The position numbers and the translations under genes were made by a program. Below are positions 1,624-37,030 of a stretch of DNA of 45,530 nt, piece after piece. A model generated the notes under the pieces. That model made no database searches. It worked only from the letters and a program-made list of their open reading frames with translations, and was not told the DNA's origin. Within the stretch, counting starts at the first letter, position 1; every line of letters starts with the position of its first letter. This DNA comes from Opitutaceae bacterium (lineage in GTDB: Bacteria; Verrucomicrobiota; Verrucomicrobiia; Opitutales; Opitutaceae), in NCBI GenBank assembly GCA_003164715.1, contig PLTZ01000021.1, positions 29,051-74,580 of the forward strand, read 5' to 3'.

Positions 1624-2135
1624 ACACGGTCCTCGTCATCCTCGCGCTTGCGACGCTCGGCACGGCCGCCGTGGCGATGAGTCTGCGCAACCTCCTGCAC
1701 AGTGTCCTGCTCCTGACGGCCACCTGGGCGGGGGTGGCCGCGTTCTACCTGTGGGCCGGCGCCGAGTTTGTGGCGTTCGCCCAGCTCCTGGTCTACGTGG
1801 GCGCGATCTCGATGGCGGTCCTCTTCGCTGTCCTGCTCACCCGCCACTCGCGCGACGACGTGGCCGCCCCCCCGGCCGCGCGCAGCCGCGGAGTCTACGC
1901 CGCCGCGGCGGGGGCCGCCGTGGCCGGCGTCCTCCTTGCAGCCGTCTCCCTGGCTCCCCTCGCCACGGCGCCGGCCCGCGCGCCCGCCGTGTCCGTGCGC
2001 CAGCTGGGCGGCGAGCTCATGGGCGCGCACGCCGCGTCGCTCCTCGCGGTCGCGGTCCTGCTCACGGTCGCCCTCGTCGGCGCCGTGGTCCTTGCGGCCG
2101 GCGGCCCGCCCGAGAAGCCGGGGGACACGCCATGA
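1620..2135 (+). CDS. nuoJ: NADH-quinone oxidoreductase subunit J
   Basis: Small membrane subunit of complex I (171 aa, about five TM segments) that contributes to the chain of charged residues linking the quinone site to the antiporter subunits. The segment FAQLLVYVGAISMAVLFAVLL (about residues 55-75; first motif residues FAQLLVYVGAIS) is the typical NuoJ TM3 with its pi-bulge glycine and tyrosine. The start is a GTG at 1620 that overlaps the nuoH stop (GTGA); no ATG is available nearby. The loop after TM3 is Arg/Ala/Pro-rich, and the C-terminal tail is short. It ends in an ATGA overlap with nuoK. Confidence 0.94.
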   Translation: MNTVLVILALATLGTAAVAMSLRNLLHSVLLLTATWAGVAAFYLWAGAEFVAFAQLLVYVGAISMAVLFAVLLTRHSRDDVAAPPAARSRGVYAAAAGAAVAGVLLAAVSLAPLATAPARAPAVSVRQLGGELMGAHAASLLAVAVLLTVALVGAVVLAAGGPPEKPGDTP

Positions 2136-2443
2136 GCCCGCTCCAGCTCTGCCTCGCCTTCTCGAGCCTGCTCTTCGCCGTGGGCCTCACCGGCGCGCTC
2201 GCCCGCTCGAACAGCATCCTGGTCCTCCTCGGCCTCGAGCTCATGCTGACGGCGGGCAGCGTCAATTTCATCGCGTTCTGGCGCTTCGGCCCTCCCGCCT
2301 CCCCCGCCACCGGCGTCGTCTTCGCCATCTTCGCGATCGCGGTCGCGGCGGCCGAGACCGCCGTCGGCCTCGCGCTCGTGATCGCCGTCTACCGCCACCA
2401 GAGGAATATCCGCCTGCCGGAGGCCAACCGCCTGAAGGGCTGA
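2132..2443 (+). CDS. nuoK: NADH-quinone oxidoreductase subunit K
   Basis: MrpC-like membrane subunit of complex I, 103 aa, three TM helices, normal family length. The two buried glutamates important for proton transfer are visible: one in LLGLELMLTAGSVNF (TM2) and one in AVAAAETAVGLAL (TM3). ATG at 2132 overlaps the nuoJ stop. Three bases separate the stop from nuoL, the only non-overlapping junction in the visible operon. Confidence 0.96.
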   Translation: MSPLQLCLAFSSLLFAVGLTGALARSNSILVLLGLELMLTAGSVNFIAFWRFGPPASPATGVVFAIFAIAVAAAETAVGLALVIAVYRHQRNIRLPEANRLKG

Positions 2444-2446
2444 CCC

Positions 2447-4471
2447 ATGCCGCCCTCCCTCGAGACCCTCTGGCTTGTCCCCGCGCTGCCGCTTCTGGCG
2501 GCCAGTCTGGGGGCCCTGACCCCGAGGGGCGGCCGGCGCTTCTCGGCGGGCGTCGCCATCGCCGCCATGGCCGGGGCGCTCCTCCTCTCGTGCCTCGCGC
2601 TGCGTGCCGCCCTCCTGGACCCCTCGGCGCACCTCGTCCACAACTTCCGCTGGTTCGACCTGGGCAACGGGGCCGTTGAGCTCGGGTGGCTCCTCGACCC
2701 CTTGAGCGCCCTCATGTGCGTCATGGTGAGCCTGGTGGGGCTCCTCATCTTCATCTTCAGCCTCGGCTACATGTGCGAGGACGAGAACTTCACCCGGTTC
2801 TTCTGCTTCATGAGCCTCTTCGCGGCGGCGATGCTCGGCGTCGTGATCGCGAACAGCCTGCTGCTCCTCTTCATCAGCTGGGAGCTGGTCGGACTCGCCT
2901 CGTACCTGTTGATCGGCTTCTGGTTCCACAAGCCGGCGGCGGCGGCGGCGGCGAAGAAGGCGTTCATCACGACCCGGATCGGCGACCTCGGGCTCCTCCT
3001 CGGGCTCGTGTGGCTCTACGACTCGACCGGCTCCTTGCTCCTCTACGACGGGGGCAACGGCGTCCTCGAGGCCGGCGTCCTCGGCAACCTGGGCACGATG
3101 GCGCTTGCCGGCGGCCTGGCCGTCCCGACCGCGATCAGCCTGCTCATCTTCTGCGGCGCCGCGGGCAAGTCGGGCCAGTTCCCCCTCCATGTCTGGCTGC
3201 CCGACGCGATGGAGGGCCCGACCCCGGTTAGTGCGCTCATCCACGCCGCGACGATGGTGGCGGCGGGCGTGTTCCTGATTGCGCGCGTGTTTCCCCTGAT
3301 CTCGTACGACCAGGCGCTGGCGGCCGACCCCCTCCACGCGCTCACGGTCGTGGCGGCCATCGGCGCCGTGACCGCGCTCCTCGGCGCGGCGATCGCGACC
3401 GCCCAGAGCGACCTGAAGCGCGTCCTGGCCTTCTCCACTATCTCGCAGCTCGGCTACATGATGCTGGCGCTCGGCGTGGGCTCCTGGGTCGCCGCGATCT
3501 TCCACCTGCTGACGCACGCCTTCTTCAAGGCCCTCCTCTTCCTCGCCGCGGGCTCCGTCATCCACGCCGCGCACCACGAGCAGGACATCCGGCGCCTCGG
3601 CGGGCTCGGCCGGACAATGCGCACGACCTATGCGACCTTCGCCGTGGGCATGATGGCGCTCTCCGGGGTGCCGTTCCTCTTCTCGGGGTTCTGGAGCAAG
3701 GAGGCCGTGCTGCACGCCGCCTCCGAATGGGCCGTCTCCCAGCTGCCGCTCTATGCGGGGCTTGTCGGCGTCGTCCTCACGGCCTTCTACATGACCCGCC
3801 TCCTGTGCGAGGTGTTCTGGGGGCCTGCGCGCTCCCCCGAGGCCGCCCACGCCCGCGAGAACACGGGGGTCATCACGGTGCCCCTGGTCATCCTGGCCAT
3901 CGGCTCGGTCGGCCTCGGCTTCCTCGGGACTCCGGCATGGCCCTGGCTCGAGTCGGCCCTGACCGGCCGGCCGGTCGCGCCGCGCTCGCTCCTTGAGGGC
4001 GGCGGCCTCATGGCGCTCTCCATCGTCCTGGTGGCCGCCGGCTTGGGCGCGGGCTGGGCCCTCTACGGCCGGAAGGTCCGCGTCTCTGCGGACGCGAAGG
4101 ACCCCTTCTCGGCCGCTGCCCCCAGGCTCTTCGGGTTCCTCGGCGCCCGGATGAGGCTTGACGAGCTCTACGCCGCGACGCTCGGGCGCCTGAACACCCT
4201 TGGCGCGGCGCTCGCGGACTTCATGGACCGCTGGGTCTGGGGCGGGGCGGTCGGGTTCCTGGCGCTCCTCGGCGAGTTCACAGGGTCGGTCAACAGCGAG
4301 GTCGACGAGTCCGGCCTCAACGCCGGCTTCAACTCGGCCAGCGAGCGGATCCGCGGCGCGGGCCGCGCCTATTCGGGCGCGCAGTCGGGCGACGCCCAGG
4401 GCTATCTGCGCACGGTCGCCGTCGCCTTCGTGGTGCTCGCGCTTCTCGTGCTCCTGGGGGGTGGCCGATGA
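2447..4471 (+). CDS. nuoL: NADH-quinone oxidoreductase subunit L with lengthened lateral helix region
   Basis: Distal antiporter-like proton-pumping subunit of complex I, 674 aa. The TM5 glutamate (E146 in FISWELVGLASY) and TM7 lysine (K241 in GAAGKSGQFPLHVWLP) are present, and so is the conserved HAATMVAAGVFL stretch. E. coli NuoL is 613 aa. The extra length lies mainly between the DELYAATLGRL motif before the lateral helix and the GYLRTVAVAF segment of the last TM: I count 84 residues there against about 51 in E. coli and about 59 in alphaproteobacterial NuoL, comparing with sequences from memory. An elongated lateral helix is the expected companion of a second NuoM, which follows directly downstream. 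The stop overlaps the next ATG (4468). Confidence 0.97.
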   Translation: MPPSLETLWLVPALPLLAASLGALTPRGGRRFSAGVAIAAMAGALLLSCLALRAALLDPSAHLVHNFRWFDLGNGAVELGWLLDPLSALMCVMVSLVGLLIFIFSLGYMCEDENFTRFFCFMSLFAAAMLGVVIANSLLLLFISWELVGLASYLLIGFWFHKPAAAAAAKKAFITTRIGDLGLLLGLVWLYDSTGSLLLYDGGNGVLEAGVLGNLGTMALAGGLAVPTAISLLIFCGAAGKSGQFPLHVWLPDAMEGPTPVSALIHAATMVAAGVFLIARVFPLISYDQALAADPLHALTVVAAIGAVTALLGAAIATAQSDLKRVLAFSTISQLGYMMLALGVGSWVAAIFHLLTHAFFKALLFLAAGSVIHAAHHEQDIRRLGGLGRTMRTTYATFAVGMMALSGVPFLFSGFWSKEAVLHAASEWAVSQLPLYAGLVGVVLTAFYMTRLLCEVFWGPARSPEAAHARENTGVITVPLVILAIGSVGLGFLGTPAWPWLESALTGRPVAPRSLLEGGGLMALSIVLVAAGLGAGWALYGRKVRVSADAKDPFSAAAPRLFGFLGARMRLDELYAATLGRLNTLGAALADFMDRWVWGGAVGFLALLGEFTGSVNSEVDESGLNAGFNSASERIRGAGRAYSGAQSGDAQGYLRTVAVAFVVLALLVLLGGGR

Positions 4472-6009
4472 GCTCCGTTCCGCTGCTCTCCCTCCTGGTC
4501 TTTGTCCCGTGGGCCGGGGCGCTTGTCCTCGCCTGCCTGCCCGGCCTCGGCCGGCGGGCGCTGCGGATCCTGGCGCTCGGCTTCAGCCTGTCGACCCTCG
4601 TCCTCGCGCTGGCGTCCCTCGGCTCCTTCGACCGCGCCTCGACCGGCTACCAGTTCGTCGAGCGGCACGCCTGGATCCCATCCCTCGGCGTGCACTACCA
4701 TCTCGGCATGGACGGGCTGAGCCTGCTGCTCGTGCTGCTGACGGGCCTCCTGGCGCCCGCCGGCCTCCTGGCATCGTGGCGGCAGGAGCGCGACGCGCGG
4801 TTTTTCAACCTGCTCTACCTCCTCCTGCAGGGCGCCGCCGTCGGCGTCTTCCTGGCGCTCGACTTCTTCCACTGGTTCATCTTCTGGGAGCTCAGCCTCA
4901 TCCCCGCGTACTTTCTCATCAGGCTGTGGGGCGGGCCCGCGGCCTCGCGCGCCGCCTATCAGTTCGTGATCTACACGATCGGCGGAAGCGCGTTCCTGCT
5001 GCTCGGCTTCGCGGCCATCTTCGCCGCCACCGGCGCGCTGGATTTTGAGGCGCTCTCCCGGATGGGCGCGGACGGGACCCTTGCGGCCAAGCTCGCCGCG
5101 CTCGGGGGCTGGTGGCCGCAGGCCGTATTCCTGGGCGTCTTCCTGGGGTTCGCCGTCAAGGTCCCCCTCTATCCCTTCCACACCTGGCTGCCCCTGGCCT
5201 ACGCCGAGGCGCCCACCGGGGTCTCGATGTTCCTGACCGGGGTGATGTCCAAGATGGGCGTCTACGGCTTCCTGAGGATCCTCTGGCCCCTTTTCCCGGG
5301 GCCCCTGCACGCCGCCGCCGTGCCGCTCCTCTGGCTCGCCCTCGGAGGCGCTGTCCTGGGCGCGTTCGCGGCCATGCGCCAGACCGACCTGAAGCGGATG
5401 GTCGCCTACTCCTCGGTCAACCACCTGAGCTACTGCCTCCTCGCGCTCTTCGCCGTCTGCGCGGCCACCGGGCGCCCGCACCCGACGAGCGAGGCGGCGG
5501 CGGCGGCGCTGAGCGGGACCCTCCTGCAGCTGTTCAACCACGGCCTCTCGGCAGGCGCCCTGTTCTACTGCGTCGGGATGCTCGAGGCCCGCTCCGGCGG
5601 CAGGCGCGGCATCGGCGACTTCGGCGGGGTGCGGACGGCCGCGCCGGTGTTCGCGGGGCTGTGCGGCATCGCGATGTTCTCGTCCCTCGGCCTGCCCGGG
5701 CTTAACGGGTTCATCGGCGAGTTCCTGATCTTCCGCGGCGTGTGGGGCCTCGTCCCGTGGGCGGCCGCGGTGGCCTGCCTTGGCCTCTTCGCCACGGCCT
5801 TCTTCCTGCTCACGTTCTGGCAGCGGGTCTTCCACGGCCCGCGCTCGGGCGCGGCCTCCGGGGTGTTCGCCGACGCGTCGCGCCTTGATCTCGCGGTCCT
5901 CCTCCCCCTGGTCGCCCTCATGTTCCTCTTGGGCGTGCTCCCGCAGCTCCTCACCGGGCTCTTCAACCCGCTCATCACCTCGTGGGCGAACCACATGCCG
6001 CTGCCATGA
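4468..6009 (+). CDS. nuoM: NADH-quinone oxidoreductase subunit M, first copy
   Basis: Antiporter-like proton-pumping subunit (513 aa, about 14 TMs). The hallmark residues are intact: E141 in FIFWELSLIPAYFLI (TM5), K231 in FAVKVPLYPFHTWLP (TM7), a lysine in VMSKMGVYGFL (TM8) and the glutamate of NGFIGEFLIF (TM12). The start overlaps the nuoL stop as ATGA, and the stop overlaps the ATG of a second NuoM. This copy is the more canonical of the two and should be a working proton channel. Confidence 0.96.
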   Translation: MSSVPLLSLLVFVPWAGALVLACLPGLGRRALRILALGFSLSTLVLALASLGSFDRASTGYQFVERHAWIPSLGVHYHLGMDGLSLLLVLLTGLLAPAGLLASWRQERDARFFNLLYLLLQGAAVGVFLALDFFHWFIFWELSLIPAYFLIRLWGGPAASRAAYQFVIYTIGGSAFLLLGFAAIFAATGALDFEALSRMGADGTLAAKLAALGGWWPQAVFLGVFLGFAVKVPLYPFHTWLPLAYAEAPTGVSMFLTGVMSKMGVYGFLRILWPLFPGPLHAAAVPLLWLALGGAVLGAFAAMRQTDLKRMVAYSSVNHLSYCLLALFAVCAATGRPHPTSEAAAAALSGTLLQLFNHGLSAGALFYCVGMLEARSGGRRGIGDFGGVRTAAPVFAGLCGIAMFSSLGLPGLNGFIGEFLIFRGVWGLVPWAAAVACLGLFATAFFLLTFWQRVFHGPRSGAASGVFADASRLDLAVLLPLVALMFLLGVLPQLLTGLFNPLITSWANHMPLP

Positions 6010-7505
6010 GCCTGCTGCCCTGGACCATCTATACGTCGCTGGCCGGAGCGCTCCTCGCGCTCGTTGCCGGCGCGCGCTCGGCCCGGGCGGCGCGGTGGAT
6101 CGCGCTCCTTTCGGCCGGCGGCGCGTGGGCCCTGACGCTCGCGGCCGCGAGCCGCTTTGTGCCCGGTCCCTCGCTCCAGACGCTTGTCGACCTCCCCTGG
6201 GTCCCGTCCATGGGCGTCCGCTACCACCTCGCGGCCGACGGGATCAGCCTCACCCTCCTCGTCCTGACGGGGCTGGCGTCAACCGCGGGCGTCCTCTTCT
6301 CCTGGAACGTCACGGAGCGCGCCGGCGAATTCTTCGCCCTCTTCCTGACCCTCGTGGCCGGGGTCTACGGGGTGTTCCTGAGCGCGGACGCGCTCCTCTT
6401 CTTCGCCTTCTACGAGATCGCCATCGTGCCGAAGTATTTCCTGATCGCGGTCTGGGGTTCCACGAACCGCGAGTACGGGGCGATGAAGCTCGCGCTCTAC
6501 TCCTTCGCCGGGAGCGCCATGGTCCTGGCCGGCCTGCTGTGGGTCTACGCGGCGGGAGGCGGGCACGGCTTCGGCTTCGCCGACCTGGCGCAGGCGGCCG
6601 CCACGCTGCCGAGGCGCCAGCAGATCGTCGTCTTCGCCTTCGTGTTCTTCGGGTTCGCCACGCTTGCCGGCCTCTTCCCCCTGCACACGTGGGCCCCGAC
6701 GGGCCACGTGGCCGCCCCGACCGCGGCGTCGATGCTTCTGGCCGGCGTCGTGATGAAGCTCGGGGCCTACGGCTGCCTGCGGGTGGCGCTCCCCCTCTCG
6801 CCGGTCGGATTCGCCTACTGGCAGACGCCGATCGCGTGGCTGGCGGTGGTCGGCATCGTCTACGCGGGGCTCGTGGCGCTCATGCAGGCGGACCTGAAGT
6901 TCGTCATCGGGTACTCGAGCGTGAGCCACATGGGCTTTGTCATGCTGGGGCTCGCCGCAGCGAACCTCCAGTCGGCCGGGGGCGCGGTGCTGCAGATGTT
7001 CTCCCACGGGGTCATTGCGGGCCTCCTCTTCGCCGTCGTCGGCCGGATGGTCTACGACCGCACCCACACCCGGCAGCTGGCCGACCTGCGCGCGATGCAA
7101 CTCTACCGGCGCCTGCCCTTCGCGGCCGCGGTGTTTGTCATCGCGGGCATCGCCTCGATGGGACTGCCGGGATTCAGCGGCTTCCCCGCCGAGCTCACGA
7201 TCCTGGTGGGCGCATGGAAGACCCGTCCGGCGTGGGCGGCCGTCGGCGCCCTGGGTGTCCTCGTGGCCGCCGCCTTCACCCTGCGCGCCATCCAGCTGGG
7301 CTTCTTCGGGTCGGCCGACAAGGCCGCGCCCGCGGGTGACGCGGCCCCCCTGGCGCCGATCACGCTCGCGGAGAAGCTCGGGGCGTTCCTCCTCGTGGGC
7401 GCGACCGTCCTAATCGGGATCAGGCCGGATCTCCTGCTTAACTGGATCAACCCGGCGCTGCAGTCGCCGCTGCTGCAGACGGTCCTCAAGGGAGGCGCAT
7501 CATGA
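6006..7505 (+). CDS. nuoM: NADH-quinone oxidoreductase subunit M, second copy, TM7 lysine replaced
   Basis: Second antiporter-like subunit, 499 aa, in tandem with the first and diverged from it. The fold and the TM5 glutamate (E137 in FAFYEIAIVPKYFLI), the TM8 lysine (K251 in VVMKLGAYG) and the TM12 glutamate (SGFPAELTIL) are conserved. The TM7 lysine is not: FAVKVPLYPFHTW of copy 1 aligns with FATLAGLFPLHTW here, putting Leu220 at the lysine position. The ATG at 6006 makes the operon-typical ATGA overlap; an in-frame ATG 24 bases upstream would overlap nuoM more and is less likely. The ATGA overlap with nuoN shows it is kept in the operon and not a decaying duplicate. Confidence 0.94.
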   Translation: MSLLPWTIYTSLAGALLALVAGARSARAARWIALLSAGGAWALTLAAASRFVPGPSLQTLVDLPWVPSMGVRYHLAADGISLTLLVLTGLASTAGVLFSWNVTERAGEFFALFLTLVAGVYGVFLSADALLFFAFYEIAIVPKYFLIAVWGSTNREYGAMKLALYSFAGSAMVLAGLLWVYAAGGGHGFGFADLAQAAATLPRRQQIVVFAFVFFGFATLAGLFPLHTWAPTGHVAAPTAASMLLAGVVMKLGAYGCLRVALPLSPVGFAYWQTPIAWLAVVGIVYAGLVALMQADLKFVIGYSSVSHMGFVMLGLAAANLQSAGGAVLQMFSHGVIAGLLFAVVGRMVYDRTHTRQLADLRAMQLYRRLPFAAAVFVIAGIASMGLPGFSGFPAELTILVGAWKTRPAWAAVGALGVLVAAAFTLRAIQLGFFGSADKAAPAGDAAPLAPITLAEKLGAFLLVGATVLIGIRPDLLLNWINPALQSPLLQTVLKGGAS

Positions 7506-19016: not shown

Positions 19017-19388
19017 TCACTTCGTCTTCGGAAGGGCAAGCACCCGGGCCACGGTCTCCAGAAGCGCCTCGGAGCGGATTGGCTTGGCGAGCACGCCGAG
19101 CTGGCGAGCGGTCGGCAGGTAGAGCGACTCGCTGAACTGGGAGTTGCCCGAGATGGCAATCAGGCGCGCTGCCGGATCGAGGCGCGATAGGCTTATGATG
19201 AGCTCCAGTCCGTCCATGTCGGGCATCGCGATGTCCGTGATGACGAGGTCGTGCAGCCCCGCCTCGTAGAGCGCGCGCGCTCTCTTCCCGTCGGGCGCCT
19301 CGTCCACCGTGTAGCCCGCCTCGCTCAGGATCTCCGCGGTCACCGTCCGCAGGGCGGCGGCGGCGTCAATGAGAAAAATGGAGGCCAC
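19017..19388 (-). CDS. REC-only response regulator with eroded acidic pocket
   Basis: Single-domain CheY-like receiver, 123 aa, no output domain. The phosphoacceptor D52 (VITDIAMPDMDG), S80 and K102 are present. The acidic pair at the end of strand 1 is damaged: the family has IDDDKI (as in the relative at 30463-30864), here it is IDAAAA, so D8 remains and the neighbouring Asp is Ala. Three residues are also missing before the conserved Lys-Pro (GVLAKP against GVERILAKP). Mg2+ binding and phosphorylation may be impaired. The start is a GTG. The sequence CCCGATTTCCC sits immediately upstream, exactly as in front of the regulator at 30864, supporting a common origin. Confidence 0.85.
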   Translation of the reverse strand: MASIFLIDAAAALRTVTAEILSEAGYTVDEAPDGKRARALYEAGLHDLVITDIAMPDMDGLELIISLSRLDPAARLIAISGNSQFSESLYLPTARQLGVLAKPIRSEALLETVARVLALPKTK

Positions 19389-27746: not shown

Positions 27747-29858
27747 TTAATCCATCAGTTTCCGTGCAAAATAGGTCATCTCCAGGGCGGTGGTGTGCGC
27801 CTTCTCCTTCAAGTTCGCACCCGAGCCGTGCCCGCCCTCGGTCACCTCGTAGAAATAATAGGGAATGCCAAATTCCGCGAGCCGGGCGGCGAACTTCCGC
27901 GCGTGCTGGGGCCCGACGCGGTCATCCTTGGTTGTGGTCCAGATAAACGGCTGGGGATAGGCCGCCCCCCGCCGGATATTCGCGTACGGAGAAATCTTCG
28001 CAAGGAAGGCCGCCTCGCCCGGATTGGACACGCTCCCGTATTCCCCCACCCACGAGCTGCCGGCCGCAATCTTCTCGTACCGGATCATGTCCAGGAGCGG
28101 CACCTGGATGTCCACCGCGTTCCACATCTCGGGATGCTGGTTGAATTCGACGCCCATGAGCAGCCCGCCGTTGGATCCGCCCTCGATCCCCAGGCGCCTC
28201 GGGCTCGTGATGCCGCGCGCGATCAGGTCCCCGGCCACGGCCGCGAAATCGTCATAGATCCGCTGCCGGTGCGTCGTCAGGCCCGCCTCGTGCCAGGCGG
28301 GCCCGAATTCCCCGCCGCCCCGGATGTTCGCCATGACGAACACGCCCCCCTTCTCGAGCCAGAGCTTGCCCATCGTCCCCGAATATCGGGGCGTCTCCGA
28401 GATCTGAAACCCGCCGTAGGCGTTCAGGATGGTCGGATTGCTCCCGTCGAGCTTCATCGGCGCTGAATGCACCACAAAGTACGGCACTTTCGTCCCGTCC
28501 TTCGACGTCGCCTCCATCTGCTCGGCTGCCAGGTGGGACGCGTCGAACTTGGGCGGCAGCGTCTTCACCTCGGTGACCCCGTAGTCCGAGGCGCTGACGA
28601 GCCAGAGGCTGCTCGGCTGCAGGAAACCGGCGATGTTCAGGAACGCGTCGTCGCCGTGGAGGTTGGAGTCGGCGATGCCGATGGTCGCATTGTCGGCCAG
28701 GTTCAGCCGCTGCGACGCCCACGTGCCGTCCGCCTTCGGCAGGTACACGAAGGCCCGTCCCCGCACGTTGTCGAACGTCGTCACGAGCAGCCGATCCCTG
28801 GCCGCGCTCACGTCGCCCAGCGTCTCGCGCGGGCCCGGAACAAAGATCGCGACCGGCTTCAGGTGCCCCGGGTCCTCCGCCATCGCCGCAATGTCCAGCG
28901 ACACCAGAGAACCCGCCGTGAACACGGATTGGCCCGGCTTCCAGTCCTCCGCCAGGCTCACGACCAGGCGGCCCTCCACCAGGTCGCGGATCTCGGATTT
29001 TTTCGGCAGCATGAGTTGCCGCACCTGGTCGCCCGTCACGAGGTACTTCTCGGACTCGAACGTGGTCAGGGGCCGATTGATCAGAACGACCCGGTTCCCG
29101 CGGGCGTCATGGAGCACGACCGGGTCCACCCCGTAGCCCCCGTCGTCAGCCCGCCCGCGGAAGACCTCCCTCGCCGCCGCCGGGGCGTCGCCCCTCCTGA
29201 GCCGCTTGACGATGAACGGATATCCGGACGCCGTGAGGTCGCCCGGCGCCCACTCGCGAGACACCAGGAGCGTGTCGTCGTCCTCCCAGGCGAAGCGCTG
29301 CTTCGCACGAGGCAGGACGAAACCGCCGTCGACAAACTTCGCCGAGGGAATGTCGAACTCCCGCACGGTCACGGCGTCCTCCCCGCCGTCGGAAAGGGCG
29401 AGCAGGCACCGGCGCTCCGCCGGCTCGGCCGTCGTGATCCCCTTGAGGAACCAGTTGGCCTTCTCCGTTTGGGCCAGTAGGTCAAGGTCGAGGACGGTCG
29501 CCCACTCGGGAGTCGCGGTCCTGTAGGATTCAAGCGTGGTCTTCCGCCAGTAGCCGCGCACGTGCCCCTTCCCTTGCCAGAAATTGTACACCGCCCCGCC
29601 GACGACGGTCGGCTCCGGGATCCGGTCCTCCGCCTCCGCGATTGCGAGCGCCTCGGCGTAGAGCTCCGCGTAGCGCGGATCCTTCTCCAGCACCGCAAGG
29701 GTCTTCTCATTCTCGGCCTGTACCCACGCCATCGACCTGGCGCCGTGGGCGTCCTCAAGCCATAGGTAGGGATCGCTCTCCGAATCCGCGGCCACGACCG
29801 GCCGGGTGAGAAGCATCAGCGCAACGGGTGCAGCCAAACAGAGAATTCTTCTTTGCAT
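27747..29858 (-). CDS. Prolyl oligopeptidase family (S9A) serine peptidase, exported
   Basis: 703 aa: a signal peptide (about 1-23, ending VVAAD), an N-terminal seven-bladed propeller (from DPYLWLEDAHGARSMAWV, the classic S9A opening) and a C-terminal alpha/beta hydrolase domain. Catalytic triad: S562 in GGSNGG, the Asp of KDDRVGP (D645/D646) and H677 in EGGHGSG. It should cleave short peptides, typically after proline, in the periplasm. Length and motifs are complete. It is the last clearly high-GC gene before the lower-GC element that begins at 29982. Confidence 0.93.
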   Translation of the reverse strand: MQRRILCLAAPVALMLLTRPVVAADSESDPYLWLEDAHGARSMAWVQAENEKTLAVLEKDPRYAELYAEALAIAEAEDRIPEPTVVGGAVYNFWQGKGHVRGYWRKTTLESYRTATPEWATVLDLDLLAQTEKANWFLKGITTAEPAERRCLLALSDGGEDAVTVREFDIPSAKFVDGGFVLPRAKQRFAWEDDDTLLVSREWAPGDLTASGYPFIVKRLRRGDAPAAAREVFRGRADDGGYGVDPVVLHDARGNRVVLINRPLTTFESEKYLVTGDQVRQLMLPKKSEIRDLVEGRLVVSLAEDWKPGQSVFTAGSLVSLDIAAMAEDPGHLKPVAIFVPGPRETLGDVSAARDRLLVTTFDNVRGRAFVYLPKADGTWASQRLNLADNATIGIADSNLHGDDAFLNIAGFLQPSSLWLVSASDYGVTEVKTLPPKFDASHLAAEQMEATSKDGTKVPYFVVHSAPMKLDGSNPTILNAYGGFQISETPRYSGTMGKLWLEKGGVFVMANIRGGGEFGPAWHEAGLTTHRQRIYDDFAAVAGDLIARGITSPRRLGIEGGSNGGLLMGVEFNQHPEMWNAVDIQVPLLDMIRYEKIAAGSSWVGEYGSVSNPGEAAFLAKISPYANIRRGAAYPQPFIWTTTKDDRVGPQHARKFAARLAEFGIPYYFYEVTEGGHGSGANLKEKAHTTALEMTYFARKLMD

Positions 29859-29981: not shown

Positions 29982-30009
29982 TGGTGCGAATGCCGGGAGT
30001 TGAAATCGG
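29982..30009 (-). repeat. Direct repeat of the tRNA-Arg 3' end (distal attachment-site copy)
   Basis: TGGTGCGAATGCCGGGAGT at 29982-30000 is identical to 34773-34791, the last 19 bases of the tRNA-Arg gene including its CCA, in the same orientation. The next nine bases match with three differences. No other part of a tRNA can be folded here, so this is a fragment, as expected for the far attachment site of an element integrated into a tRNA 3' end. Confidence 0.8.
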
Positions 30010-30462
30010 GCGTGTTCTCAATTTTCAGAGCGTGATCACAAGACAGCGACTCGGCAGCGATTAGCTGGTGTGTGCATGGCGCTGCACGATTCTGGGCGGA
30101 AATCGGACAGGAGTTTACCCCGGAGGGCGCATGCTGTGGCGTCGAGGCCTCACCGCACCGACTCCCGCGAAGTTGCGGCTTTGGCGGCGCGCTGTTGCCG
30201 TTGGCTGCTCCAAAAGAGCGGGTTTCAGAACACCATGCTTCTCGTTGCGCACCGAGGCCAAGGCGAGGCGTGCGAAGAGTCAGTGTTTCTCTGCGAAACC
30301 CTGAACGTTTTCCTCTAAGCGCATTTGCCCTGCCACCGGAATTCCGTTCCGCTTCATTTGCCGCACCGGTATCGAGTCAGAGTGATCCAATTCCAGATTC
30401 GGTACGCTGACGCGGTTGGCAGTGGATCCCACTGCTTGGAGGACTATTCCAATCCGCCTTTC
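30010..30462. other. Non-coding or decayed stretch inside the element
   Basis: About 450 bases without a supportable gene; together with 29859-29981 the gap is about 600 bases. Short plus-strand frames exist here (for example 30070-30318), but their products are Arg/Cys-rich with no recognisable motif. If the element once had an integrase, this attachment-proximal segment is one place its remains could be; I cannot identify any. Confidence 0.5.
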
Positions 30463-30864
30463 TCACGGCTTAGCCTGCGTTTTCGTGGCCTGAGGAGGTT
30501 TAGTGAGAACATCGGCCACGGTTCGCAGCAACACGCCGGGCATTACCGGCTTGGCGAGGATTCGCTCGACACCGAGGTCTTTCGCGAGCGGCAAGAAGCT
30601 CGACTGACTCAACTGGGAGCCACCAGAAAAGGCGATCACGCGAGGCCTCGGCGTCGTGTAGGAAAGCTGTTCGATCAGCTGCAACCCATTCATCTCGGGC
30701 ATCATAATGTCTGTGATGACCAGATCGTACTGCCCAGATTTATAAAGCTCTAGTCCCGCGTTGCCGTCATTCGCAGTGTCCACGGCGTGGCCGCCCGCTC
30801 GCAGCAACTCGGTGGTCATGACGCGCAGAATCTTGTCGTCGTCAATCAGAAGGATGGATGCCAT
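30463..30864 (-). CDS. REC-only response regulator
   Basis: 133-aa CheY-like receiver with a complete active site: acidic residues in LLIDDDKIL (8-10), phosphoacceptor D52 (VITDIMMPEMNG), S80 and K105. A short Lys/Thr/Pro-rich tail (about residues 122-133) follows; no output domain. It is a close relative of the eroded regulator at 19017-19388, sharing SGxSQxSxSxxLPxA and the CCCGATTTCCC leader directly before the start codon. It lies downstream of the hybrid kinase and of a second receiver, so it probably takes part in that phosphorelay as a phosphate sink or diffusible messenger (inference). Confidence 0.92.
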   Translation of the reverse strand: MASILLIDDDKILRVMTTELLRAGGHAVDTANDGNAGLELYKSGQYDLVITDIMMPEMNGLQLIEQLSYTTPRPRVIAFSGGSQLSQSSFLPLAKDLGVERILAKPVMPGVLLRTVADVLTKPPQATKTQAKP

Positions 30865-31034
30865 AAGGGAAATCGGGGGTTTGGTGAAAATGGATCGGAC
30901 GCCATGGACTTGTCGAGGGTTCGCCGCACTATTTTCAGCAAACTGTGGCTACAAACGGCTTGGGCAGACAAACAGTCGCGAGCTTTCCCGTTCCTCCTCG
31001 CCTTGAATCATTGTGTCGGCTGCGCAGAGCCCCA

Positions 31035-31433
31035 TTATGATCGCGCGGGCTCCCCACCACCTGCTTGGACCGAGGTCAAACTGGACACGGCTGCCAGCAG
31101 ATCCTTCCCTGAAAAGGGCTTGGAAAGGGTTTTCGATGCACCGAGTTTTTCGGCAAGATCCAGATAGTCCCTTGCATTGATCCTGCCGCCGCCTGAAATT
31201 GCGATGATCTTCATCGCGGGAAATTTTCGATGCAGCTCAATTATGGTCTCGATGCCCTCTTTCTCGGGCATGACCAAGTCCGTGATGAGAAGCTCGAACG
31301 ATTCTCGCTGAGCCTGCTCCACAGCCTCCTTCCCATTGGTCGCAGTGGTCACCACGTGCCCTCCATGTTCCAGGAATCCTCTCTGCATCGCAAGAAGCCC
31401 GGGGTTGTCATCGACCAAAAGTATCTTTGCCAT
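31035..31433 (-). CDS. REC-only response regulator
   Basis: 132-aa single receiver domain: LLVDDNPGL acidic pocket, phosphoacceptor D52 (LITDLVMPEKEG), S80 (AISGGG) and K105 (LSKPFSG). It lacks any DNA-binding or enzymatic output. It starts 43 bases after the hybrid kinase stop on the same strand, so the two are probably cotranscribed. It is less similar to the receiver at 30463 than that one is to 19017. Likely partner of the kinase in a His-Asp relay. Confidence 0.92.
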   Translation of the reverse strand: MAKILLVDDNPGLLAMQRGFLEHGGHVVTTATNGKEAVEQAQRESFELLITDLVMPEKEGIETIIELHRKFPAMKIIAISGGGRINARDYLDLAEKLGASKTLSKPFSGKDLLAAVSSLTSVQAGGGEPARS

Positions 31434-31476
31434 AAAGCGTTTGTTAAGAGAAGGAACCCGCGTCCGGCGCCGCGCG

Positions 31477-34400
31477 TCAGATCGAAAATGTCACATCGCT
31501 TTGGAGAACTGATTGCAGAGCTGTAATGAGCTTCTCCCTGCTGAATGGCTTTTCCAGGATCACGGTCACACCGAGTTCGTTGAACGCCAGCCGGTCTCGC
31601 TCTTCCACGCGCCCGCTGGACACGATAATGCCAACGTCGGGCATCATGTGCCTAAGAACACGCACAAAGGTCAGCCCATCCATGTTAGGCATGTGCAAGT
31701 CCGTGATGACAACCCGAAGGTCGGCCCGCCTCTCCGCCACCTGCATCAAGGCTTCGGTGCCGTCGGATGCAGTGACCACCTGGAACTTCATGGCTGTTAG
31801 GACCGCGCGGGATATCTTCCGCACGGTGACTTCATCGTCTACAACGAGGACCATTTCGCCATGGGCAAAGAACGGATTGCTCGTGATCGTAGGCGCCACG
31901 CGGCTTGCGGAGGCTGACGGGTCTGCAGGCAGATAGATTGCAAAGGTTGAGCCCTTGCCGGCTACCGAGTAGACTCGAACAAAGCCGCCGTGGCTCCTGA
32001 CGATTCCCAGGACCGTCGATAGCCCGAGTCCGGTTCCTTTGTCGGGGCCCTTCGTGCTGTAGAATGGCTCGAAGATGCGCTCGAGCACCTCGGGTGGAAT
32101 GCCGGTACCGGTGTCCTGGACGCGCCACACGACATAGCTCCCCGGCTTAGCGTCCGGGAAGGAGCTCGCATAGGTTTCGTCAATGTCGGTATTGCCAGCG
32201 TCCAACGTCAAGGCGCCGCCACTCGGCATGGCATCGCGGGCATTGACGCAAAGGTTTAGCAAAACTTGATAGAGCTGGGTGGCGTCGCCCAGTATCGCGT
32301 GGAGGTCACTCGGGCACCGTTTTCGCAGCACGATACTCTTGGGGAAGGTGCCCTCGACAATGGCCCCGATCTGGTCGAACAGGTGCCGAGGATTGATGAG
32401 GACTCGCTCTCCCTCGATGCCTTTCGCGAATGTAAGCAATTGCCTAACCATGCCCGCTCCATGCCGGGCGCTCGCCTCCATGATGTCCACGGTCCCCGAT
32501 GCGTGCGGGTAATCCAACCGAATCAGCTCGACTCCCATCAGGATAGGAGCCAGCGCGTTGTTCAGGTCGTGAGCAATGCCGCCCGCCAATGTGCCTATGC
32601 TCTCCAGCCTTTGGGTTCGCAGCTTAAGCGCCTCTGAATCCCGGTGCTCGGTGATATCGCGCGCAACCTTCGCAAAACCGCGCAGCCTCCCGGTCGTGTC
32701 GTGCAGGGCTGTGATTACGACGCTTTCCCAGAATCGCGAGCCGTCCTTTCGAATTCGCCAGCCCTCATCCTCAAATCGGCCTTCGGTTGCGGCGGTCTCA
32801 AGCGCCTTCTGCGGTTTGCCCAGCTTGACATCCTCGGGCACGTAGAATGTCGAAAAGTGCTTCCCGATGATCTCCTCATCCGAGTAGCCCTTGAATCTTT
32901 GCGCGCCGGCGTTCCAGCTGACTACCAACCCCTCCGCATCCAGCATGATGATCGCATAGTCCTTTACGCCCTCCACCATGAGGCGGAAACGCTCCTCTGT
33001 TTCGAGCAGCTTTTCCGTCCGGTCGATCACAAGCTGGTCAAGGTGCGCATTCATCTCCCGCAATTTGGATTCGCTCTCACCAAGCGCCGCGGTGGCCTGA
33101 TTGATCTGTGACAAATCTCGCGCGACCCCTAAAAAGCCGGCAATTCCGCCTTTTTCGTCATGGATGGCGCCAACCGATACCAAAGCGGGGACCCGGGATC
33201 CGTCCTTGCGGACGTAGTTCCACTCTCGGGTCTCGGATCTTCCCAGTCGACTGATGGCGACAAAGACCTCGAAGCCAGGCTCGATTTTCCTGCCCAATTC
33301 ACGAGTCAGATCCTGTGCGCGGGCGGCAATCTCGACGCTGTCGTGATACAAGCTGGGATTCGCTTTGCCCACGACCTCGGCCGCCGTGTAGCCAAGCAGG
33401 TCCTCCGCACCCCGGCTGAAGCTAGTGATGACTCCGTCTACCGTGGTGGAAATGATGGCGAAATCGGCGCTGTCTAGCAGCGCCTGTTGGAAGCTGGCTT
33501 TGCGGGCAAGGTCGTCGGCTGCTTGCTTCATGGGAGTTATATCCCAATTCGTTCCGACGACGCGTAACAGCCGTCCTGAATGGTCACGCTGCCCAAGGAA
33601 AAACGCTCGGATATAATGGATGCTCCCGTCCGGCCATACGATGCGGTGTTCCAATTCGATTATCCTGTTTTTCTCAACTAGGTATCTGGTTTTTTCATGC
33701 ACCTGTTGCCGGTCCTCCGGATGGACCATTTCGTACCATGCCTCGTTCGTGCCCGCAAACGAGCCCGGCGCTATTCCGTAAAGGCGGCACATCTGCTCAT
33801 CCCAGCTCACGCGATTCTCGGAGAGATAGTCGACCCATACGCCCACTCCCCCTGCGCGGGTTGCAAGGGTCAAGCGATCGGTGATTTCTTCAAGTTCGCG
33901 ATTCGTCCGGCGAACCGATCGAACAAACGTGAAGAACGCTCCCGAACTCAATCCAACAGTAAGAAACAAGAGGCTCCATACGATGGGGAAGCCAACGGCT
34001 ACGGAGTGGATCGCATCCTTGGAAAGGCGGTCACCGCGTTCCTTGTCGATGACTGCGAGGTAATCTTCCATCCTCCGACGCTCAAGCGTCGCCTGCATGA
34101 GCTTGGTGTTGTAGATCTCTTGGGCCTCCTTTTTCTTCCCCGCCTTGACCAGGTCTTTGATCTCCAACCATGCCTGAAAGAACCGGCCCTGCGCATCAGC
34201 ACTAATATTAATGGCCTCTTGATCGCGGGGATCAAATTTGGGGTAACTATTCCTGATCTCCCTTAGATCCTCCTCGGCCTTCAGTACGAGCGCTTCATAA
34301 GTGTCCCATTCAGCACCGGTGGTGGCGTTAAGGAAATTGACAATGGCGATGCGCTGGTCCTTGGCCACGCCCTTCAATTTCCCGGCCCAATAGAGCGCCG

Positions 34401-34551
34401 CGTACGTGTCACTGTTGAGGGCATTGACGGTGTTTCGGGTCCGATAAAGATTCATCAGGGAGATGGTGCCCTGGAGAACGTTTAGCATTCCCAAAATCAG
34501 ACCAATCAGCAGCGCGGTCCGACCAAACGTTAATCCTCTAGTCGGCTTCAT
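31477..34551 (-). CDS. Hybrid sensor histidine kinase with three PAS domains and C-terminal receiver
   Basis: Membrane sensor kinase, 1024 aa from ATG 34551 (the frame is open to a TTG at 34719). Order: TM1 (about 12-34), a helical periplasmic sensor resembling four-helix-bundle domains (36-180), TM2 (184-211), three PAS/PAC domains (about 225-345, 355-485, 520-635), HisKA with H661 (GGIAHDLNNALAP), HATPase with N770 (NLCVNARDAM), G1 DTGTGIPP (813-820) and G2 GTGLGLS (839-845), then a receiver (902-1020) with D905/D906 and phosphoacceptor D951 (ITDLHMPNMDG). It autophosphorylates and passes phosphate to its own receiver and probably to the two receivers downstream. The signal is unknown. Base composition is lower in GC than in neighbouring core genes, in line with transfer. 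Confidence 0.92.
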   Translation of the reverse strand: MKPTRGLTFGRTALLIGLILGMLNVLQGTISLMNLYRTRNTVNALNSDTYAALYWAGKLKGVAKDQRIAIVNFLNATTGAEWDTYEALVLKAEEDLREIRNSYPKFDPRDQEAINISADAQGRFFQAWLEIKDLVKAGKKKEAQEIYNTKLMQATLERRRMEDYLAVIDKERGDRLSKDAIHSVAVGFPIVWSLLFLTVGLSSGAFFTFVRSVRRTNRELEEITDRLTLATRAGGVGVWVDYLSENRVSWDEQMCRLYGIAPGSFAGTNEAWYEMVHPEDRQQVHEKTRYLVEKNRIIELEHRIVWPDGSIHYIRAFFLGQRDHSGRLLRVVGTNWDITPMKQAADDLARKASFQQALLDSADFAIISTTVDGVITSFSRGAEDLLGYTAAEVVGKANPSLYHDSVEIAARAQDLTRELGRKIEPGFEVFVAISRLGRSETREWNYVRKDGSRVPALVSVGAIHDEKGGIAGFLGVARDLSQINQATAALGESESKLREMNAHLDQLVIDRTEKLLETEERFRLMVEGVKDYAIIMLDAEGLVVSWNAGAQRFKGYSDEEIIGKHFSTFYVPEDVKLGKPQKALETAATEGRFEDEGWRIRKDGSRFWESVVITALHDTTGRLRGFAKVARDITEHRDSEALKLRTQRLESIGTLAGGIAHDLNNALAPILMGVELIRLDYPHASGTVDIMEASARHGAGMVRQLLTFAKGIEGERVLINPRHLFDQIGAIVEGTFPKSIVLRKRCPSDLHAILGDATQLYQVLLNLCVNARDAMPSGGALTLDAGNTDIDETYASSFPDAKPGSYVVWRVQDTGTGIPPEVLERIFEPFYSTKGPDKGTGLGLSTVLGIVRSHGGFVRVYSVAGKGSTFAIYLPADPSASASRVAPTITSNPFFAHGEMVLVVDDEVTVRKISRAVLTAMKFQVVTASDGTEALMQVAERRADLRVVITDLHMPNMDGLTFVRVLRHMMPDVGIIVSSGRVEERDRLAFNELGVTVILEKPFSREKLITALQSVLQSDVTFSI

Positions 34552-34772
34552 TCGTAAATGTTCAAGATTCTGAGCGGATCCACCTTTTAGCGCCACCTTC
34601 TGTTCCGATCTGGACGGGTTAATGTTATACACCTGACGCTGGTTGTCCATCCTTAGCGGGGGAAGGCCCGGCTCGGCGGCCCTGACCGGAGCCAGGAATG
34701 CATATAGAAAAAATAGCAACGGTTATGTAAACGTTGCCTTCGGTCCCCAAACCGTGGTGGAGATCCATTACA

Positions 34773-34800
34773 TGGTGCGAATGCCGGGAGTCGAACCCGG
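34773..34800 (-). repeat. tRNA-side copy of the attachment direct repeat
   Basis: The 19 identical bases 34773-34791 span CCA, the discriminator, the 3' acceptor strand and part of the T-arm; similarity to 29982-30009 continues to 34800 with three mismatches. This copy keeps the tRNA functional. Confidence 0.8.
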
Positions 34801-34847
34801 ATCGACGGCTTCGGAGGCCGCTACACTATCCATTGTGCTACATTCGC
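34773..34847 (-). tRNA. tRNA-Arg, anticodon CCG
   Basis: A 75-base cloverleaf on the minus strand: acceptor GCGAATG/CATTCGC, D-stem GCAC/GTGT, anticodon stem GCGGC/GCCGT around loop CTCCGAA (anticodon CCG, reading CGG), T-arm CCGGG-TTCGACT-CCCGG, discriminator A, and CCA encoded in the DNA. All stems pair, with G-U pairs only in the D and anticodon stems. It lies 46 bases downstream of gltX on the same strand. Its 3' end doubles as the attachment site of the adjacent element. Confidence 0.96.
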
Positions 34848-34893
34848 AGAATCTTGCTCCGAGCGTTGAGCAAACCGCCCGCCAAACCCGAGG

Positions 34894-36210
34894 TCAAGCC
34901 GTAGCGAGGAACCGCGCAATCCGCCTTTCGACCCTTTCGCGGCCGAGTACGCGCAGGAGTCCGTAGAAGCTAGGCCCCACCGCCGTTCCCGAGAGGGCGA
35001 GCCTTGCGGGGTGGATGTAGTCCCCCGTTCCCGCCGCGTGCTGGGCGGCGAGCCCCTGGATGAGCGCCTCGAGCGTTGTGTCGCTTGAGAAGTCCGCCTG
35101 GGGGAGTGCCGCAAGCAGCTCGCCAAGACGCGCCTTCGGGTCGCCCTTCGAGAAGACCTTCTCCCTCGCCTTGGGGTCGATCGCGTACTCGTCGCTGAAG
35201 AAGTAGCCGATGAACCCGGGCAGGTCCTCGACCGCCCGCACCTTGGGCTGGCAGAGCGCGATCACCTCGCGTAGGTAGGCCTCTTCCGGCTCGGCGCCCG
35301 CGAAGTAGTTTCGCGACTTGAGGTAGTCCCGCGCAAAGCTGAAGCATTTCCCGGGGTCCATCTCGTGCAGGTAGACCATGTTCATGTGGGCCAGCTTCTT
35401 CTCGTCAAAGCGGGCGTTGCTCTGGTTCACCCCGGGCAGGTCAAAGAGGCGCACGATCTCGGCGAGGGGCAGCTTCTCGCGGTCGTCCTTCGGCGACCAT
35501 CCTAGGAGGCAGAGGAAGTTGACGAGGGCCTCCGGCAGGAAGCCCCGCTTCTGGTACTCCTCGACGAGGGCGCCCTGGTCCCGCTTCGACATCTTGCCGG
35601 GACCGTTCTGCTTAAGGATGAGCGGAATGTGGGCGTAGGTCGGAAGCGGCGCCCCAAACGCCTTGAAGAGCTCCGTGTGCTTGCTCGTGTTCGAGAGGTG
35701 GTCCTCGCCCCGGATCACATGGGTCACCTTCATCGCGATGTCGTCGACGACGTTCACGAAATGGAAGACCGGGTTGCCGTCGGAGCGCACGATGACGAAG
35801 TCCTTCTCCTCGGTCCGCTCGACCCTGCCGCGGATCGCGTCCTCGATCACCTGCGGCTCGCCCGAGATCCTGAAGTACAGGGCGCCGTCCTTCTCGTAGG
35901 TGCGCCCAGAGGCCTTCAGCCTCTCCAGGTACTCCTTGTAGACGGAGGCCCGCTCGCTCTGGCGGTAGGGGCCAAAGTCGCCGCCCTTGCCCGGGCCCTC
36001 GTCCCAGTCCAGTCCCAGCCAGCGAAGGCTGTCGTAGATCAGCCGCAGGAACTCGTCGCTATTGCGCGTCTGGTCCGTGTCCTCGACCCTGAGGATGAAG
36101 ACGCCCCCGTTGTGCCGGGCGTAGAGCCAGTTGAAGAGGGCGGTCCTGGCGCTTCCGATATGGAAGAAGCCCGTGGGACTGGGGGCGAAGCGGACGCGGA
36201 CCTGGGGCAT
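34894..36210 (-). CDS. gltX: Glutamyl-tRNA synthetase
   Basis: Class I aminoacyl-tRNA synthetase charging tRNA-Glu, 438 aa. The HIGH-type motif is in [20 protein letters not shown] and the KMSKR loop in [14 protein letters not shown], and the RVEDTDQTR signature is complete. It is somewhat shorter than the usual 460-500 aa, mainly in the C-terminal anticodon-binding part, which ends [18 protein letters not shown]. The start is ATG 36210, where homology begins; the frame is open another 73 codons upstream without protein-like content. Divergent from the M14 peptidase gene, with 58 bases between the start codons. Confidence 0.95.
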
Positions 36211-36268
36211 GGAGGGGAGTGTGGTTTGCGGCTTGTGATTCGGGCGAAGGGCAAGCAAGAACCAACCC

Positions 36269-37030
36269 ATGTCCCCTGTCAAAGCCGCACCCTTCGATCC
36301 CGCCGCCCTCGCGGCCCGGTTCGAAGGCGCCGGGGCCAAGGCCGGGTTCAGGACCGAGGTGTTCGGCTCCGCGGACAATTGCCCCCTCTTCGCGCTGACG
36401 AAGCGCACACCGGGGCCGCGGCCCCGCATCTACCTGTCCGCCGGCAGCCACGGGGACGAGCCCGCCCCGCCCCGGGCGCTCCTCGCCCTTCTCGAATCGG
36501 GCGCCCTGGATGCGAGGGCAGTCTGGTTCCTCTGCCCGATCCTCAATCCCGACGGCCTCTCGCGGGGGACCCGCGAGAACGCCGGGGGGCTGGACCTCAA
36601 CAGGGATTACCGCCACCTGAATTCGCCCGAGGTCCGTGCGCATGTCGGCTGGCTCCGGCGCCAGCCGAACTTCGACCTCGCGGTCTGCGTCCACGAGGAC
36701 TGGGAGTCCAAGGGGTTCTATCTCTACGAGCTCAATCCCGACAAGCGGCCGAGCCTCGCCGAGGCCCTGACCGCCGCGGCGGCCAGGGTTTGTCCGATTG
36801 ACATGAGCCCCGAGATCGAGGGCCGCGAGGCGAAGGCGGGGATCATCCGCCCCCTCTTCGACCCGCCGAGCCGCGAGAAATGGCCCGAATCGATCTACCT
36901 GCAGGTGAACCACACGCGCCTCTCCTATACGATCGAGACGCCGTCGTCCCTCCCGCTCGAGACCCGCGTCGAGGCGCTGCGGGCGGTCCTCGGCAAGGCG
37001 ATCGACCTGGCCGTCCGGGCCAAGCGCTGA
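36269..37030 (+). CDS. M14-family zinc peptidase / amidase
   Basis: 253-aa cytoplasmic carboxypeptidase-fold enzyme. Zinc ligands are H61 and E64 in [10 protein letters not shown] and H142 in VCVHEDWE; N111-R112 (LDLNRDYR) bind the substrate carboxylate; E223 (SYTIETPSS) is the catalytic glutamate. The compact size and HGDE motif resemble murein tripeptide amidase MpaA or succinylglutamate desuccinylase-like members rather than digestive carboxypeptidases; a role in cell-wall peptide recycling is possible. It converges on the pseudouridine synthase gene with no intergenic bases. Confidence 0.86.

Follow-up and report, generated by a model that had tools for sequence, protein, structure and literature searches.

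Cis-mobilizable elements (CIMEs) are described as segments with attL- and attR-like copies at the 3′ end of a gene and with no integration or transfer genes, and are regarded as decayed integrative and conjugative elements (ICEs) or integrative and mobilizable elements (IMEs), often lying in tandem with another element (as outlined in PMC5704250). Some of the ssrA islands of Dehalococcoides are likewise without an integration module; according to the account in PMC3146451, their recombinase is of the serine family, they lie in tandem at a single tmRNA gene and they hold many dehalogenase genes. Islander, in the outline given in PMC4383910, requires an integrase gene inside the island, and tycheposons, as described in PMC10872708, span 4–200 kb and have a tyrosine recombinase. 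Use of an enzyme in trans has analogues in the array termed a cluster of attC sites lacking an integrase (CALIN) with the integron integrase, and in the miniature inverted-repeat transposable element (MITE) with a transposase (as presented in PMC11389934). Here we analysed a 45,530-bp stretch of an Opitutaceae bacterium (assembly GCA_003164715.1, contig PLTZ01000021.1, positions 29,051–74,580; hereafter the window), in which a 4.8-kb segment beside tRNA-Arg(CCG) is flanked by copies of the tRNA 3′ end and encodes one hybrid histidine kinase together with two receivers.

We consider it probable (roughly 0.8) that positions 30001–34772 form a mini-island that is integrated at a tRNA, is non-autonomous and comes close to a CIME. 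The first-pass annotation had noticed a repeat-flanked, low-GC segment with a kinase and receivers at tRNA-Arg(CCG), and this observation was confirmed. The features of the locus, in window coordinates, are the following.

34773–34847, minus strand: tRNA-Arg(CCG), the probable integration target, still complete (ARAGORN, Rfam, sequence)
34773–34791, minus strand: tRNA-side attachment-site copy, the 19-nt 3′ end of the tRNA
29982–30000, minus strand: distal attachment-site copy, identical over 19 nt to the tRNA 3′ end
30001–34772, no strand assigned: low-GC segment between both copies, the proposed mini-island (GC 0.569)
31477–34551, minus strand: hybrid histidine kinase, 1024 amino acids, with PAS, HisKA (H661), HATPase_c and receiver (D951) domains (Pfam)
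31035–31433, minus strand: RR1, stand-alone receiver, 132 amino acids, D52 (Pfam, sequence)
30463–30864, minus strand: RR2, stand-alone receiver, 133 amino acids, D52 (Pfam, sequence)
30001–30462, no strand assigned: left end without a recognisable gene (Pfam, PHROG)
34735–34766, minus strand: motif A, a repeat similar to the terminal inverted repeat of an insertion sequence (IS) of ISL3-like type
34894–36429, minus strand: gltX (glutamyl-tRNA synthetase), upstream neighbour
27747–29858, minus strand: prolyl oligopeptidase of native composition, beyond the distal copy

The attachment repeat, TGGTGCGAATGCCGGGAGT, lies in direct orientation at 29982–30000 and 34773–34791, and the CCA is encoded within the tRNA gene. 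With up to two mismatches allowed, it occurred at just those two places in the whole genome (a draft assembly of 3,788,902 bases in 92 contigs, 98.8% complete), the reversed-pattern control giving no match, and it was the longest of the 12 exact direct repeats of at least 16 bases in the window. Read in the tRNA sense, the distal copy is preceded by GATTTCA where the tRNA has GGGTTCG. The exact 19-bp direct repeat of the tRNA 3′ end, reported earlier at a distance of 4.8 kb, thereby proved to be a unique pair genome-wide; as to the limits first given, the pair stands as described, while the segment between the copies had to be redrawn to 30001–34772. The locus combines a complete tRNA with a direct downstream copy of its 3′ end, by which a tRNA-integrated island is recognised, and it keeps attL- and attR-like copies with no recognised integration or transfer genes, by which a CIME is recognised. 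An Rfam scan of the window returned the tRNA alone at gathering thresholds, and two sub-threshold matches were read as chance.

The segment has a GC content of 0.569, compared with 0.665–0.719 (mean 0.687) for 4772-bp stretches outside the element sampled every 250 bases. The lower GC asserted at first was therefore borne out, the segment falling below the outside minimum of 0.665 and showing no equality with its surroundings. GC at third codon positions is 0.69 in the kinase, 0.62 in RR1 and 0.72 in RR2, and 0.90 in gltX and 0.87 in the prolyl oligopeptidase gene. A foreign composition is thus supported; with the uniqueness of the repeat and the fact that the congener loci examined lack the module, it upholds integration at the tRNA 3′ end.

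Pfam agreed that one hybrid kinase and a pair of receivers, each encoded on the minus strand, make up the entire cargo, and recognised no output-domain or HPt gene in the element. The kinase itself stood as first annotated, whereas its start, placed at TTG 34719, is more likely ATG 34551, judging from the predicted membrane segment. Its sensor region would span approximately residues 34–178, between two hydrophobic segments, and the N-terminus gave a weak 4HB_MCP_1 match under the curated Pfam cut-off. PADLOC returned no match for the kinase or RR1, and its assignment of RR2 as SduA (E 8e-4) was read as spurious. Among viral contigs 10 stretches fitted a pattern, and a relative of the kinase was present in none of them. 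Elsewhere in the window, at 19029–19388 (minus strand), there is a receiver-like frame with 52% identity to RR2; its N-terminal acidic pair is DA rather than DD and it may be inactive.

We infer a phosphate flow in which the kinase would autophosphorylate at H661, and the phosphate would move first to the receiver domain of the kinase (D951) and then, probably via a host HPt protein, to D52 of RR1 and RR2. Both receivers are without an output domain and would exert their effect by binding to proteins of the host. A phosphorelay without an output gene is unexpected as the sole cargo of an element, and would have to plug into the signalling proteins of the host.

As for the entry of the segment, we infer that a 19-nt core in the attachment site of the element recombined site-specifically with the 3′ end of tRNA-Arg(CCG), to which it is identical, an event that would have left the tRNA intact and a second 3′-end copy at the far side. 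Carrying no recognisable recombinase, the element would be unable to move itself; the event was probably catalysed by a tyrosine integrase like the one found at the same tRNA in a congener, supplied in trans or by a gene since lost, two alternatives that appear about equally likely.

The same tRNA was followed through relatives. A query covering 34700–35000 matched 29 of 38 genomes (own genome included), and gltX adjoins tRNA-Arg(CCG) in six genomes of the genus, namely the own genome and G004, G005, G006, G008 and G010; the DNA past the tRNA differs among the latter five. A second tRNA-Arg(CCG) end was found at three of seven loci in the genus (own included) and at none of eight in other genera (Fisher p 0.077), counting loci with at least 1.2 kb downstream, three of which have less than 4.8 kb, so that larger elements would be missed there. 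The G008 copy lies at a distance of 1072 bp, and the segment encloses a PIN-domain gene after an 89-amino-acid open reading frame (ORF) without family match, which by its position we read as the antitoxin of the PIN gene (GC 0.584). In G011 the distance is 1096 bp, and the segment encloses a HepT-like gene and a nucleotidyltransferase, which we take to be MntA-like (GC 0.569). The distal copies in the three genomes follow the tRNA variant of their own genome (ATTCG, ACTCG and ATCTG before CACCA), and each copy would therefore have arisen on its own tRNA. The base 5′ of the T-loop TTC is T in all three elements and G in the tRNA; this suggests a common attachment sequence, with a probability of approximately 1 in 9 that the agreement is due to chance.

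Two relatives have a candidate enzyme at this tRNA. In G006 a tyrosine integrase above the Pfam cut-off adjoins tRNA-Arg(CCG), its gene being cut by a contig end, and in G014, of another genus, the adjoining gene is a tyrosine recombinase (PF00589 below cut-off; PHROG integrase, E 8e-29). With a tyrosine integrase at the identical tRNA of a congener, a cognate recombinase lineage exists. Two contigs of G006 (L033 and L034) share the same tRNA-Arg(CCG) and an identical 45 bp of upstream DNA and differ downstream, representing two alleles. The G014 integrase occurs twice (L048:8242–9483 and L046:1442–2719, 98% identical), once beside the tRNA and once beside a tRNA-Arg 3′ fragment.

Copies of tRNA ends were sought more widely with the last 17 nt of each tRNA, at most one mismatch and a distance of up to 9 kb. 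The scan took in 77 predictions (74 distinct), 53 of them with at least 1.2 kb downstream (25 in the own genome, 13 in congeners and 15 in other genera), and gave downstream 3′-end copies at eight distinct loci: five in the own genome, three in congeners and none in other genera. As controls, the 3′ end upstream or inverted was never found, and the first 17 nt were found never downstream and twice upstream (at L281 tRNA-Ser(GCT) and L283 tRNA-Asp(GTC), within 9 kb). An additional 400 kb of G002 held three tRNAs, two of them with a copy within 20 kb. Besides the tRNA-Arg(CCG) loci, the copy-flanked stretches are the following.

Own genome, tRNA-Asp(GTC), 3.68 kb: AbiEi/AbiEii-like pair (AbiEii just below cut-off) and a DUF7309/DUF6930 gene
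Own genome, tRNA-Arg(ACG), 0.93 kb, imperfect repeat: Phd-type antitoxin and PIN
Own genome, tRNA-Gly(TCC), 1.17 kb: ThuA
Own genome, tRNA-Gly(GCC), 1.95 kb, imperfect repeat: TPR protein
G008, tRNA-Val(TAC), 1.67 kb: Fic-type gene
G002, tRNA-Ser(GCT), 6.5 kb: tRNA-adjoining gene matching the G014 integrase (26% over 356 amino acids, E 1e-25)
G002, tRNA-Ala(GGC), 5.8 kb, weak repeat: PIN and TIR-domain genes

The five copies of the own genome are not equally convincing, the ThuA and TPR segments being near native composition. The exact repeats mostly run from the T-loop (TTCGA) or nearby to the CCA (19, 23, 23, 35, 23, 26 and 25 nt). Pooled, 10 of 41 tRNAs in the genus and 0 of 15 elsewhere had a copy (p 0.048), in a sample that is non-random, given that the window tRNA prompted the search and loci were partly chosen for it. 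Nine of the 10 copy-flanked stretches are without a recognisable integrase, and the one at tRNA-Ser(GCT) of G002 carries the integrase-like gene. A divergent gene of tyrosine-recombinase type adjoins tRNA-Ser(GCT) in both G002 and G005 (L281:2801–4143 and L344:4885–6291, 61% identical). On contig C108 of G008 (L056, approximately 2477–7377; the same contig as L279) there are four copies resembling a tRNA 3′ end (0–4 mismatches in 26 nt, 0.9–2.7 kb apart), an arrangement reminiscent of small elements in tandem.

The absence of a visible integrase, noted at the outset, was upheld by Pfam and PHROG searches. In the profile search proposed for 30010–30462, the ORFs of at least 60 amino acids in 30001–30462 matched neither database at E 0.1; neither the internal integrase gene required by Islander nor the internal tyrosine recombinase of tycheposons was recognised in the element. 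With four recombinases as tblastn queries, the best match to the element was of 23 amino acids (E 0.066, 30296–30364, minus strand), with no collinear neighbours; we tentatively read it as chance, although in a shuffle control 0 of 60 reached E 0.07, where approximately four were expected.

PF00589 detected six genes genome-wide, three of them clustered on contig C58 and none near the window; we take two to be XerC/D-like, and a 341-amino-acid gene on contig C51, whose family matches are PF00589 and PF13495 only, is presumably integron-integrase-like. The integrases of G006, G014 and G002 had no match at E 1e-3 in 544 kb of the own genome (overlaps included).

That the element never had an integrase once it was formed, and used the integrase of another element for the same tRNA end, is a tentative reading held at somewhat less than even odds. 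It is favoured by the predominance of recombinase-free stretches in the genus, by cargo that is mostly a single operon, by the cognate integrase lineage of G006 and G014 and by the T-for-G shared before TTC; the last point loses weight if the shared T is due to chance. No helper was found in the own genome by PF00589, which counts against it, although this profile misses divergent integrases, such as the integrase-like gene at tRNA-Ser(GCT) of G002, and the lack of a helper is therefore not proven.

The other course starts from a larger, integrase-bearing island from which the integrase and the transfer genes disappeared, perhaps when an IS-linked deletion struck the tRNA side, so that the kinase and both receivers stayed behind between the attachment sites; in our estimate it has only slightly less than an even chance. 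In all four loci with an integrase-like gene (G006, G014, G002 and G005) this is the tRNA-proximal gene, the very end at which motif A offers a plausible deletion scar, and the 6.5-kb relative in G002 still has such a gene. The position tells, by the same token, against the specific proposal that the integrase was lost from 30010–30462, at the opposite end, which we regard as weakened. The weak 23-amino-acid integrase-like match lies at that end and might speak for decay. Against decay, no integrase remnant was recognisable in this element or in eight other integrase-less stretches, the 1.07- and 1.10-kb elements are each filled by one operon and would demand that decay was repeated, and motif A occurs also near tRNAs without a visible element.

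Motif A begins 6 nt past tRNA-Arg(CCG), and also 52 nt past tRNA-Ala(CGC) and 70 nt past tRNA-Leu(GAG), the latter two at contig ends; in G004, G008 and G010 it likewise neighbours tRNAs or sequences like tRNA ends. Among the 252 genomes of the family it was present in four of the 13 that belong to the genus and absent from the remaining 239. The IS whose end it resembles (20 of 28 positions agree) measures 1.28 kb, its product looks ISL3-like and its complete copy (L124:16017–17378) lies 6 nt past tRNA-Pro(TGG); a second IS end was not found in the window. Motif A may be the scar of an IS-linked deletion that took a tRNA-proximal integrase. An RNA element or coding sequence was rejected (no Rfam match, and the spacers to the tRNA differ), and the motif as the element's own end was dropped, given its presence beside tRNAs without a visible element.

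The terminal repeat of this IS also stands at contig ends (L105, L106, L109, L129 and L134), 4–52 nt past tRNA-Pro(CGG), tRNA-Ala(GGC), tRNA-Leu(CAA), tRNA-Pro(GGG) and tRNA-Glu(CTC). For the 38 tRNAs of the own genome (G000), a contig end falls within 100 bp of the 3′ side in nine and of the 5′ side in three, as though repeats, or differences among members of the sampled population, occupied the DNA downstream of tRNAs. A short GGGTCTAG-type motif, apparently of another repeat family, occurs within approximately 60 nt of several tRNA 3′ ends in G000, G004 and G010.

Several observations weigh against a tRNA-integrated mini-island. Two other contigs end inside motif A, and a misjoin there is conceivable, by which the low-GC segment would have been attached to the tRNA during assembly; we regard such an artefact as very improbable, the far end holding a 3′ end specific to this tRNA variant, a sequence of which the genome has only two copies. 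No empty-site allele with both flanks was found among the relatives compared; the gene beyond the distal copy has no relative in congeners exceeding 57% identity, which kept the two flanks from being joined. Of the 12 compared, G017 alone shows a match to the farther distal flank, and this match is remote from the tRNA and inverted. The inverted match runs from approximately 478 to 7490 of the window and corresponds to DNA 5–12.5 kb downstream of the tRNA-Arg(CCG) of G017 (L049); part of the block presumably represents NADH dehydrogenase genes.

The last of these observations concerns the cargo. Kinases of this general type are common: with three candidates scored per genome, 189 of the 252 genomes of the family gave a match at E 1e-60. 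In whole congener genomes the matches listed reach 41–46% over the PAS-kinase-receiver half only. The best match outside this genome, among those listed, is in G087, of another genus (52% over 533 amino acids), where the neighbouring gene is 61% identical to RR1 and the pair adjoins gltX in inverted order, with no tRNA beside it; a tRNA-Arg fragment there does not exceed the background of three loci. A longer history of the kinase-receiver module in this neighbourhood is thus possible. In its full form, this would mean that the pair is ancestral to the gltX/glnS neighbourhood of the family and was moved by rearrangement, the tRNA-end copy being unrelated, which we judge improbable. A receiver like RR1 (44–50%) does lie between glnS and gltX in four genomes of another genus. 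G087, on the other hand, was found via its kinase, and 40 gltX neighbourhoods chosen regardless of the kinase (of 48 listed genomes, seven having already been examined and G256 left out) contained no comparable kinase, several of them being shortened by contig ends; in L308 a 25% match lies at a distance of 2 kb. The N-terminal part of the G087 kinase also differs from that of the window kinase, the gene order is inverted, the composition of the window segment is foreign, and the exact tRNA-end copy would be left unexplained. The G087 contig has a GC of 0.58. A donor within the family with a GC content near 0.58 would also fit.

Retention of these genes at this place in relatives, which the first-pass annotation had named as an argument against insertion, was found in part: the homologous pair of G087 stands beside gltX in another genus, but the kinase is absent from every congener tRNA-Arg(CCG) locus examined. 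G005 has a receiver of 42% identity approximately 10 kb past its tRNA-Arg(CCG). When 42 kinase cores were placed in a tree, that of the window fell near those of a Verrucomicrobiales metagenome-assembled genome (62%) and G087 (59%), with no firmly supported sister.

Under the preferred reading of a tRNA-integrated mini-island, the mechanism is ordinary (site-specific integration at a tRNA), the cargo is uncommon and the pattern recurs in one genus. The element had been called unusual for lacking an integrase and for carrying a phosphorelay; the former state recurs in the genus, while the latter remains uncommon. At the loci examined in the genus, integrase-less mini-islands outnumber integrase-bearing ones, and most hold one toxin-antitoxin-like, signalling or other small operon. 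If moved in trans, they would offer a compact route for toxin-antitoxin and signalling modules into genomes. A broader scheme, rather unlikely in our view, is that tRNA 3′ ends of this genus, from T-loop to CCA, dock recombinase-free single-operon cassettes exchanged by trans-acting integrases of larger elements of the same specificity, as a counterpart of integron cassettes; if true, these would be mostly toxin-antitoxin pairs and also a phosphorelay. Descriptions of such mini-elements were not found in licensed PubMed Central texts, which is not proof of absence.

Among known systems, the element resembles CIMEs in its att-like copies and its lack of integration and transfer genes, and differs in that no ICE or IME remnant or tandem neighbour is visible. 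With the tDNA islands of Islander, as outlined in PMC4383910, it shares the regenerated tRNA and, farther downstream, a displaced 3′ fragment that keeps the orientation of the tRNA; because Islander needs an internal integrase, the element is passed over by design. As in tycheposons, a tRNA gene borders the island, the difference, on the description in PMC10872708, being the recombinase, none of which was recognised here. Like the integrative mobile elements exploiting Xer (IMEX; as portrayed in PMC5357621), which borrow the host XerCD, it would depend on a borrowed recombinase, but IMEX use dif-like sites, whereas the repeat in the present case belongs to a tRNA 3′ end. Integron cassettes and CALIN arrays are marked by attC sites; the boundaries in the present elements are ends of tRNAs. 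The ssrA islands of Dehalococcoides, as far as set out in PMC3146451, are alike in their repeats of an RNA-gene 3′ end, in forms with and without a recombinase side by side and in a conserved mismatch between gene and repeat; unlike them, the elements described here are single and small, and they occupy several different tRNA genes in association with tyrosine recombinases.

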